Assembly (NCBI GenBank): GCA_029335935.2
Contig: JARJMV020000223.1
Coordinates: forward strand, 1 to 5,341
From: a bacterium
GTDB taxonomy: Bacteria; Armatimonadota; Fimbriimonadia; Fimbriimonadales; GBS-DC
Direction: 5' to 3'
DNA: 5,341 bases
The translations under genes and the position numbers were made by a program. Numbering within the stretch: the first letter of the stretch is position 1; the number at the start of each line of letters is the position of its first letter. The notes under the pieces are model-generated. The model worked only from the letters and a program-made list of their open reading frames with translations, had not been told where the DNA came from and made no database searches. Below, piece after piece: positions 1 through 2,127 of the stretch.

Positions 1-11
1 TAATAGGTCAA

Positions 12-28
12 TGTGGAATTGTGGAAAA
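12..28 (-). repeat. Outlying pair of DnaA-box-like 9-mers
   Basis: TGTGGAATT (12-20, degenerate) and TGTGGAAAA (20-28) share one base, giving two box-like sites abutting in the same orientation as the left half of the main array. They lie 128 bp from that array, across the AT-rich stretch. They may be the edge of a further box cluster outside the window. Only the second is a full match to the box form used in the main array. Confidence 0.55.
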
Positions 29-29
29 C

Positions 30-112
30 TTTGTCTACTTCGACCGCGCGGTCGACAAAATTTGCCCCTCCGAAGCCCTAATTTTGAACTCAAATTGAAA
101 CTTTTGTCTACT
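30..112 (+). repeat. Direct repeat TTTGTCTACT, two copies
   Basis: TTTGTCTACT occurs at 30-39 and 103-112, and both copies follow an AAACT-like context (AAACTTTGTCTACT and AAACTTTTGTCTACT). One copy abuts the 16-bp palindrome and the other borders the AT-rich segment. Two 10-bp matches within 83 bp of non-coding DNA suggest a bound site, but nothing identifies a protein. Chance or decay from an older duplication remains possible. Confidence 0.4.
40..55. repeat. Perfect 16-bp palindrome
   Basis: TCGACCGCGCGGTCGA equals its own reverse complement. It is an all but pure G+C core in an A+T-rich setting, between the outlying DnaA boxes and the unwinding region. It could be the operator of a dimeric DNA-binding protein or a hairpin-forming element. 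No known operator was recognised. Confidence 0.6.
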
Positions 113-148
113 AACCGATGGGTTAATTAGCTATGCTAAGAATAGGGG
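81..148. other. Candidate DNA unwinding element with DnaA-trio-like end
   Basis: Positions 81-145 are about 69% A+T, far above the flanking genes. The right end reads TAAGAATAG (137-145) followed by GGGG (145-148), then the DnaA box at 156. Read 3' to 5', the nonamer is GAT-AAG-AAT, which resembles the DnaA-trio of the basal unwinding system described in Bacillus subtilis, where a DnaA box, a short GC cluster and trios of roughly 3'-GAT-5' lie in that order. Here the gap between trio and box is 10 bp, somewhat longer than the Bacillus layout. A small inverted repeat TTAGC-tat-GCTAA (127-139) overlaps the trio. The assignment is by pattern only. Confidence 0.5.
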
Positions 149-155
149 TTTTCGA

Positions 156-271
156 TGTGGAAAACTCTGTGGAAAACTGTGGAAACCATGTGGAAAACTC
201 TGTGGAAAACTCGGCGTTGGGGCGTTATCCACAGGGTTTTCCACGGAGTTTTCCACAATCGATGTGGAAAA
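156..271. repeat. Main DnaA-box array, nine boxes
   Basis: Five boxes read TGTGGAAAA-like on the plus strand (so TTTTCCACA on the minus strand): 156-164, 168-176, 178-186 (TGTGGAAAC, degenerate), 189-197 and 201-209. Three point the other way: 225-233 (TTATCCACA, perfect consensus), 237-245 (TTTTCCACG) and 249-257 (TTTTCCACA). A last one, 263-271, returns to the first orientation. Start-to-start steps are 12, 10, 11 and 12, then 24, then 12, 12 and 14, close to one helical turn. Positions 156-178 and 189-211 are identical over 23 bp. Positions 189-212 and 234-257 form an imperfect inverted repeat (22 of 24 match). The TTTTCCACA form is known as a DnaA box in cyanobacteria; its use here is inferred from number and clustering. 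Confidence 0.85.
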
Positions 272-274
272 CTC
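246..274. repeat. Perfect 12-bp hairpin abutting the glycosyltransferase stop codon
   Basis: GAGTTTTCCACA (246-257) and TGTGGAAAACTC (263-274) are exact reverse complements separated by ATCGA. Each arm contains a DnaA box, so this is a pair of boxes facing each other. On the minus strand it begins at the base right after the glycosyltransferase stop codon (277-275), so the operon transcript could fold here. There is no clean U-tract after it, so a standard intrinsic terminator is not supported; it could still slow RNA polymerase or protect the 3' end of the mRNA. Confidence 0.6.
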
Positions 275-1396
275 TCAGTCGGGTTGCAGGGCTTGCCGAT
301 ACGCTTGCAGGGTGCGTTCGGCAGTGGTGCGCCAAGAGAAGCGTGTTGCCTGCTGACGCGCCTTGGCGCATAGATTAGCGCGGAAGTCATCGTAGACGAG
401 AATACTCCGAATGGCGTTCGCCCACAAGCCTGGTTCATCGGGTGGGAGTAGGATGCCGCCTGAGCCGACCACTTCAGGCAGCGCGCCGCCGTTGGAGGCA
501 ACCACAGGCGTACCGCACGCCATCGCCTCTAAGGGGGGTAAGCCGAACCCCTCGTAGAACGAAGGGTACAAAAACACATCGGCGGCGTTGTAGAGCCACA
601 CGAGATGCTCGTCGGGCACATAGCCTGTTTCAATCAGCCACTCTTGCGCGTTCAGGTCGTGTTTGGCGCGTTGGAGTGCGCGTGTCGCCCAGCCCGACTT
701 GCCCGTGAGCGCGAGCCGTATCGGCAGTGCGTACTGCGAACGCGCCATCTGTACTGCCAAGAGCGCGAGTTCCCAGTTCTTGCGCGGCTGCAGCACGCCG
801 ACCGCCAGCGCGAAGGGCGGTTCAAGCCCGTAATGCTCGCGCGCCCACGCCTGCGCCTGCGCACGCGGAATCGGGTGAAACCCCTCAGGTAGCCCGTTTG
901 GCGTGGCGATAATCTTCTCAGGCGGCAGGCAAAGTATCCGAATCATATCCTCGCGCGAGGTCTCCGAAACGGTCAGCACACGCCGCGCCCGACGACACGA
1001 CGCAGGCACCGTGAGCCTGAGCAGAATCCTGTCTTTCAGAGGGAACCACTGCGGTCCAATCAGGAACGAGATGTCATGCACGGTGGTCACGGCGGGGATT
1101 TTGAAGAACGGGGACACCGTGTATTGCGTGTGGATGAGGTCGCAAGCGTGCGCTTGAGCAAGTTTAGGCAGCTGGAACAGGCTCCAGAGGCGTTCGTTGC
1201 GGGCGGGCGCGACCACGAACGCATACAGCGACGATTCGGGCAGTGCGTCGCTGGGAATGGGGCGTGTGGAGAACAGCGTTAGGCGGTACTCGGTGGGGTT
1301 CAGCCGCTCGGCGAACGCCTTGAGCAGTCCGCGCCAGTAGGTGCGGTCGCCTGTGTATGTGCCCGTGAGCAAGCGTGCGTCGACGCCGATATTCAT
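275..1396 (-). CDS. Glycosyltransferase family 4 (GT-B fold)
   Basis: This 373-residue protein should transfer a sugar from a nucleotide-sugar donor to a growing glycan, in the cytoplasm or at the inner face of the membrane. It starts MNIGVDARLL with a TGTYTGDRTYWRGLL segment (11-25), where family members usually carry a Gly-rich acceptor loop. VHDIS lies at 106-110. The C-terminal donor domain shows VGVLQPRKN (199-207), TGYVPDEHLVWLYNAADVF (267-285 region start) and the EX7E motif EGFGLPPLE (282-290), followed by GTPVVASNGGALPEV. These are hallmarks of GT4 mannosyl/glucosyl-type enzymes with retaining chemistry. No signal peptide or membrane helix is evident. The ATG at 1396-1394 was chosen because it overlaps the rsmG stop as ATGA and is preceded by GGGAGG six bases away. 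The reading frame stays open upstream into rsmG, but that part looks unlike a glycosyltransferase. Donor, acceptor and final glycan cannot be told. Confidence 0.9.
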   Translation of the reverse strand: MNIGVDARLLTGTYTGDRTYWRGLLKAFAERLNPTEYRLTLFSTRPIPSDALPESSLYAFVVAPARNERLWSLFQLPKLAQAHACDLIHTQYTVSPFFKIPAVTTVHDISFLIGPQWFPLKDRILLRLTVPASCRRARRVLTVSETSREDMIRILCLPPEKIIATPNGLPEGFHPIPRAQAQAWAREHYGLEPPFALAVGVLQPRKNWELALLAVQMARSQYALPIRLALTGKSGWATRALQRAKHDLNAQEWLIETGYVPDEHLVWLYNAADVFLYPSFYEGFGLPPLEAMACGTPVVASNGGALPEVVGSGGILLPPDEPGLWANAIRSILVYDDFRANLCAKARQQATRFSWRTTAERTLQAYRQALQPD

Positions 1397-2127
1397 GCCT
1401 TGCCTCCCAAGGGGCGTTTGAGCATCTGCGCCCACGCGCGTGGGTACAGTGCAGGCGTCGGGCGATGCTTGTGCAGAATGGCGATGGCGCGCTGCACTGT
1501 GCCCGTCTCCATCTCCAACTCCACCGTCTGCACCTCCAGCGTTGCGCCGAGCGACTGTGCCGCTCCCTGCGACGCTTGGATCTCCTCTATTTCGTGGATA
1601 CTCTTGAGCGCAAGCCCGACGCCGCCCTGCTTTAGAAACGGCGTCATCAGCTCGGCGAGGATAGGCATCTTGGCGACTGCGCGCGCCACGACACAATCGT
1701 ACTGTTCGCGAGCTTCTGGGGCGTGCGCCCATGCCTCCGCGCGAGCCTGTACCGACTGCGCGTCAATCCCCAACAAAGTGCAAGTTTCTCTCAAAAACTG
1801 TACCGTTTTACCGTGAGAGTCCAATAGAGTTAGTTGTAGATCGGGGCGAACTATCGCAAGCGGGATTCCGGGCAATCCTGCGCCTGAGCCGATGTCCAGC
1901 ACGCGCGCGCCCTCTGGAATGGCGTAGACGCGGAGCAGGCTGAGCGAATCGAGCACATGTCGCCCCACTGCCTGCTCAGGCGGCACCCGGGTCAGATTCA
2001 TCTGCCGATTAACCTCGTACAAGCGTTCCAGATATGCGCTAAGCCGTTGCCTCTGTGCGTCGCTGAGGGTCAACCCCCAACGCGCGGTCTGATTGAGCAG
2101 TTGCCAATCGCCGATGTGCGCATGCAT
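1393..2127 (-). CDS. rsmG: 16S rRNA (guanine-527 N7) methyltransferase RsmG (GidB)
   Basis: RsmG uses S-adenosylmethionine to methylate N7 of G527 in 16S rRNA, in the decoding region of the small subunit; loss gives low-level streptomycin resistance in several bacteria. The 244-residue protein fits the family's usual 205-240 or slightly longer. Visible are NLTRV (44-48) with HVLDSLSLL (57-65), the SAM-binding motif I VLDIGSGAGLPGIPLAI (76-92), the acidic motif II LLDSHGKTVQFL (101-112), VVARAVA (146-152) and the basic family tail RPTPALYPRAWAQMLKRPL (222-240). The ATG at 2127 follows a run of six A residues; no strong Shine-Dalgarno is seen. It is the first gene of an operon with the glycosyltransferase (4-bp overlap) and divergent from the HDOD gene. 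It is commonly located beside oriC with mnmG, which is not seen here. Confidence 0.97.
   Translation of the reverse strand: MHAHIGDWQLLNQTARWGLTLSDAQRQRLSAYLERLYEVNRQMNLTRVPPEQAVGRHVLDSLSLLRVYAIPEGARVLDIGSGAGLPGIPLAIVRPDLQLTLLDSHGKTVQFLRETCTLLGIDAQSVQARAEAWAHAPEAREQYDCVVARAVAKMPILAELMTPFLKQGGVGLALKSIHEIEEIQASQGAAQSLGATLEVQTVELEMETGTVQRAIAILHKHRPTPALYPRAWAQMLKRPLGGKA
1403..1408 (-). promoter_or_regulatory. Ribosome binding site that sets the glycosyltransferase start
   Basis: On the minus strand GGGAGG lies six bases before the ATG at 1396-1394, inside the last codons of rsmG. This strong Shine-Dalgarno sequence, with the ATGA stop/start overlap, argues for translational coupling and against the longer in-frame start upstream. 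Confidence 0.75.

Follow-up and report, generated by a model that had tools for sequence, protein, structure and literature searches.

A conserved DnaA-box module next to rsmG is the likely chromosomal origin of a Fimbriimonadales bacterium

The dense cluster of DnaA boxes at the left end of the window, by which we mean the whole stretch of 5,341 nucleotides that was analysed, is likely the chromosomal oriC of a Fimbriimonadales bacterium. We base this assignment on the uniqueness of the cluster, on its conservation, on the unwinding anatomy found in relatives and on direct contact with dnaA in one of them (G022); together, these points give good support to the preliminary description, which had called the region oriC. 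The window is an entire contig (G000:C263:1-5341) of a 2.03-Mb draft assembly (335 contigs, 85.5% complete), and the feature is truncated at position 1. The elements of the region and its flanking genes are:

1-6, minus strand: first two predicted DnaA-trios (CTA-TTA), separated from the proximal box by 13 bp; then the contig ends
12-20, minus strand: DnaA box AATTCCACA, the weakest, with two mismatches to TTTTCCACA; degenerate second member of the tandem pair
20-28, minus strand: proximal DnaA box TTTTCCACA; distance to the array-edge box (156), 136 bp
30-39, minus strand: copy of AGTAGACAAA adjoining the proximal box
40-55: perfect 16-bp palindrome TCGACCGCGCGGTCGA
about 50-150: A+T-rich spacer between array and proximal box, 38-40% G+C (60-62% A+T); the unwinding block of the preliminary description
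80-96: near-palindrome AATTTTGAACTCAAATT, conserved in an alignment of nine
103-112, minus strand: second copy of AGTAGACAAA, 73 bp from the first
127-139: dyad TTAGC-N3-GCTAA, conserved in an alignment of nine
156-271, both strands: main DnaA-box array (five boxes on the minus strand at 156-209, three on the plus strand at 225-257, one on the minus strand at 263-271)
156-164, minus strand: array-edge box
168-176, minus strand: box of the main array
178-186, minus strand: box of the main array, GTTTCCACA
189-197, minus strand: box of the main array
201-209, minus strand: box of the main array
225-233, plus strand: box of the main array, TTATCCACA
237-245, plus strand: box of the main array, TTTTCCACG
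249-257, plus strand: box of the main array
263-271, minus strand: box of the main array
275-1396, minus strand: glycosyltransferase gene (group 1/4, Pfam) flanking the array
1393-2127, minus strand: rsmG (gidB; Pfam PF02527)

Within the 274-bp region, 11 DnaA-box-like 9-mers span positions 12-271, and nine of them are packed into the 116 bp of 156-271. All were found where they had been described before, and the listing bears out the earlier choice of TTTTCCACA as the main box (seven exact copies) with TTATCCACA occurring exactly once. The main array consists of two opposed head-to-tail runs, 156-209 on the minus and 225-257 on the plus strand, plus the single box at 263-271, and the start-to-start spacing of boxes inside each run is 10-12 bp. 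At most one mismatch to TTWTCCACA was observed for 10 boxes. When these 274 bp were dinucleotide-shuffled 1000 times, such boxes averaged 0.38 per shuffle and never exceeded 3. The window carries a box cluster beyond chance, as is typical of a DnaA-type chromosomal oriC. Counted in four 50-bp bins, positions 1-200 have a G+C content of 38-44%, versus 61% for the whole window, in agreement with the A+T-rich block in GC-rich DNA noticed earlier. TTTTCCACA itself is already known as a DnaA-box variant (PMC4674748, for cyanobacteria; PMC5835720).

Across the whole assembly, 7 of the 12 exact TTTTCCACA sites and 8 of the 23 exact TTWTCCACA sites are located in this region, and the other 15 of the latter are singletons on separate contigs. 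The cluster is the sole one of its kind in its own draft assembly, and no DnaA box was found at the organism's own dnaA locus (3.2 kb). The complete chromosome of the relative KatS3mg018 (AP024673.1, 2.99 Mb) likewise has a single cluster: 10 of its 43 TTWTCCACA sites fall within 334 bp (2,138,766-2,139,099), and a second box cluster was not found. The genes parA and parB are located about 10 kb from this array, which lies at 2.14 Mb, and dnaA lies at 1.25 Mb.

We then looked at relatives, of which the named ones are Fimbriimonadales or Armatimonadetes bacteria. Among named records, a search with rsmG yielded 12 loci. Identity was 64-94% for nine of these (L014-L022), all of which except L022 have an array (8 of 9). 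Among 101 genomes of the order, rsmG matches were obtained in 97. Using two head-to-tail boxes 1-5 bp apart as the search pattern, we detected arrays in 22 of the 101 order genomes, namely in 15 of the 18 genomes of the family (the window's own included, hence in 14 of 17 related family genomes) and in 7 of the 83 others; these counts, like all conservation counts across relatives, reflect shared ancestry and are not independent. The pattern was not found in the family genomes G010, G042 and G002. For G010 and G042 the rsmG search was also without a match, and G002 belongs to a divergent genus, where the 18 boxes are scattered and the nearest two are 87 bp apart.

In other families, G068 carries five DnaA-box-like sites within 250 bp (L061, G068:C1, 1339-1588), and these may mark the origin in a different family of the order. 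G023 (L058), G004 (L060) and G045 (L057) have a lone head-to-tail box pair each, located on the same contig as rsmG at distances of about 18, 28 and 48 kb, respectively.

DnaA was found in 17 of the 18 family genomes. We considered an altered box-reading motif of DnaA as an explanation for TTTTCCACA and discarded it, since no alteration was seen and DHTT is kept in all 17 sequences. The residue preceding DHTT in domain IV is T, H, A, S or N in the family; in E. coli DnaA it is R.

The layout of the region is conserved. In all 14 relatives measured, the array is followed after 123-136 bp by a TTWTCCACA box and, after a further 69-77 bp, by an inverted box. In the window, 136 bp separate the array from this proximal box, and an inverted box would fall beyond the contig end. 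In 11 of 15 origins, the proximal box is followed by a degenerate second one, WTTCCACA, and the boxes at 12-28 give the window the tandem boxes of a basal unwinding system. The published trio rule asks for at least three trios within 0-16 bp of a box, with a preference for 13 bp (PMC8287927), and a 3'-GAT-5' trio reads CTA on the complementary strand (PMC8235120). By this rule, at least three trios follow the proximal box in 11 of the 14 relatives, with a spacing of 13 bp in 10 of the 11 and of 11 bp in G016, and the rule failed there in G044, G038 and G019. The trios read CTA-CTA-CTA in KatS3mg018, four times ATA in G022 and CTA-TTA-ATA in G025, the nearest relative; in the window, two trios (CTA-TTA) are visible before the contig ends. 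At least three consecutive NTA at 9-16 bp were detected at the proximal box of 9 of the 14 relatives, versus 12 of 34,744 background positions.

Further elements are shared in the spacer. Of the 11 same-genus origins, 7 contain both exact copies of AGTAGACAAA, 73 bp apart (72 in G044), and the other four have one exact copy. The 14-bp core of the palindrome (one base free) was detected in 10 of the 18 family genomes; nine of the 10 have it at the array, as do 9 of the 11 same-genus origins. As origin-only sites we rejected all three candidates: the palindrome core has a copy elsewhere in G044, G034 and G042, single copies of AGTAGACAAA were found elsewhere, and TTAGC-N3-GCTAA gave 22 matches in 2.4 Mb of KatS3mg018. 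There, groups of two or three such dyads, near 153.2, 739.4, 1875.1, 2117.6 and 2714.2 kb, have spacings of 77 and 116 bp and resemble a dispersed repeat. Our guess is that the paired AGTAGACAAA and the spacer palindromes are putative sites for a further regulator or a bending protein.

The gene neighbourhood of the module changes within the family. In the window's genus and in G016, the rsmG-glycosyltransferase pair stands on the array side. The module is located at the 3' end of dnaA in G022, with dnaN further out; a RecF/SMC-type gene (recF by eye) stands on its trio side in G013, and in G019 the array is flanked by genes for a tRNA-Met and a hybrid histidine kinase. These last three genomes also possess the rsmG-glycosyltransferase pair, but have the array on another contig. 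In G019 the gene following the glycosyltransferase gene, which we take by its motif to be recJ, starts 22 bp past the end of the latter, and the array site there is empty. Since four contexts exist, the neighbours changed at least three times, and given draft assemblies either the module or its flanks may have moved. In a tree of two proteins (the rsmG and glycosyltransferase products) rooted on the distant G002, G016 joins the window's genus (support 72), followed by G013 (51) and G019 (91), with G022 outermost, which would fit a single arrival of the origin beside the glycosyltransferase gene.

On the trio side, the neighbour varies even within the genus: rplL-type in several genomes, carB in two, and a chorismate-binding enzyme or a kinase in others. 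The closest relative, whose rsmG is 94% identical, has rplL as the next gene listed on this side; dnaA, dnaN or mnmG, suggested earlier as genes to look for just left of position 1, are not expected there. Linkage to a replication or partition gene was found with rsmG here, with parA/parB in KatS3mg018 and with dnaA in G022. We tentatively propose that the oriC of this family may be a self-contained cassette of ~350 bp that moved in one piece at least three times among unrelated gene settings (dnaA, recF, tRNA-Met/kinase and rsmG-glycosyltransferase), with a rigid geometry and, in the window's genus, with conserved sites (the paired AGTAGACAAA and the 16-bp palindrome) to which a second, undescribed origin-binding protein would attach.

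A minimum of GC skew at the array had been proposed as a check, and it did not confirm the site. We analysed 120 stretches of KatS3mg018, that is 2.4 of 2.99 Mb, and found a jagged skew with a broad minimum at 2.36 Mb, versus 2.139 Mb for the array, which ranked 30 of 84 and 31 of 89 among candidate positions. A two-arm pattern does exist (an equally good fit was obtained in 0 of 60 and 1 of 60 permutations); its best fits with free arms were at 2.80 Mb for GC skew and at 2.35 Mb for fourfold sites. The maximum of the detrended skew is at 0.685 Mb, and its antipode at 2.179 Mb lies 40 kb from the array. An equal-arm optimum near the array (2.16-2.24 Mb), obtained with the first 60 stretches, was dropped, since the fits moved with 120 stretches and free arms. 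Gene-strand bias and A/T skew in KatS3mg018 gave no support for the array as origin. The skew of the flanking 4 kb rises from the array side to the trio side in 12 of 14 relatives (in three by <0.01) and turns from negative to positive in 8 of 14, confounded by gene direction. A parS cluster was not found in 2.4 Mb of KatS3mg018, where the sole parS-like match is weak, with 3 mismatches, and far from the array.

The region is likely an oriC that would work as follows. We predict that DnaA occupies the opposed runs of boxes (156-271) as well as the tandem pair (12-28), 136 bp from the array edge; the main array may supply it to the pair in analogy to the distal boxes of B. subtilis incC. From the tandem pair, DnaA would run onto the single-stranded DnaA-trios at the left contig edge, the duplex would open leftwards, and the helicase would be loaded in the stretch of some 70 bp that precedes the inverted box. 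We therefore predict the unwinding site at the left edge of the window and beyond, and not in the A+T-rich block that had been taken for it.

That the oriC is correctly assigned but opens in this block, between the array and the proximal box, appears unlikely. The block is 60-62% A+T, the array-edge box of the window passes the lax trio rule (10 bp, then CTA-TTC-TTA), and the least stable 41-bp stretch, which in 14 relatives was not consistently on the trio side by helix stability, lies inside the block in several of them, including the closest, G025. However, the block lies between two box sets and is full of conserved sites other than trios, and the box facing it has no conserved ones: the lax rule is passed there in 3 of 14 relatives (G038, G032, G022) versus 11 of 14 at the proximal box, the trios of the window's array-edge box are absent from G025, and two NTA in a row were seen in none of the 14 relatives, versus three or more in 9 of 14 at the proximal box.

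A datA-like cluster that titrates DnaA or serves regulation, with oriC elsewhere, would agree with the distant dnaA of KatS3mg018 (1.25 versus 2.14 Mb), with a skew that does not point to the array and with the missing parS cluster in 2.4 Mb of that chromosome. We consider it improbable, given that neither the window's assembly nor KatS3mg018 has a second array, that the organism's own dnaA locus (3.2 kb) is without boxes, that relatives combine the tandem pair with trios and that the module adjoins dnaA in G022. The preliminary description had also named a plasmid or prophage contig as an objection; the boxes would then form its own origin. DnaA-box runs do exist on other small contigs, e.g. 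in the relative G028, but the window's contig bears housekeeping genes (rsmG and, according to Pfam, galT-type, HDOD, ZIP and YmdB-like genes), and the orthologous place sits in a complete chromosome of 2.99 Mb, which makes this explanation scarcely credible. The G028 contig of 3 kb (L155, G028:C39) has four TTATCCACA head to tail, 11 bp apart, at 573-614, away from the rsmG locus; the contig may be plasmid or contaminant DNA and had no match in the plasmid collection.

We favour the reading as oriC with opening at the trios, and compared it with known origins. The oriC of E. coli contains opposed head-to-tail runs of closely spaced DnaA sites, largely of low affinity, together with an IHF site. 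The window has opposed head-to-tail runs as well, but of near-consensus boxes. With incC and the basal unwinding system of B. subtilis, it shares tandem boxes, a distal box set and, as predicted, a spacer of about 13 bp with CTA-type trios (PMC6669920, PMC8287927). In the model put forward for B. subtilis, distal boxes increase the local amount of DnaA, and the proximal pair loads DnaA onto the trios (PMC6669920). Unlike there, the arrays here are dense and opposed, the spacer is conserved and contains palindromes and repeats, and neither dnaA nor dnaN adjoins the origin in the window's genus. Cyanobacterial origins also use TTTTCCACA as main box, with up to 12 boxes in one species, but are mostly found beside dnaN (PMC4674748), in contrast to rsmG and a glycosyltransferase gene here. 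Fimbriimonas ginsengisoli Gsoil 348, of the same class, shares scattered replication genes and a jagged GC skew; its description reports isolated DnaA boxes only and no cluster (PMC4072686), in contrast to the dense cluster here. This was the only paper on origins in the class that our search found, subscription papers and DoriC being outside its scope.

We describe a likely origin of a known kind, the interest of which lies in its changing gene context and its extra conserved sites. For another family of this order, the probable origin is placed by anatomy and comparison instead of skew, and a published type of unwinding module now appears in a little-studied phylum. Since the module adjoins dnaA in one genus and lies away from it in others, the family offers a natural test of whether the linkage of oriC and dnaA matters for initiation control.
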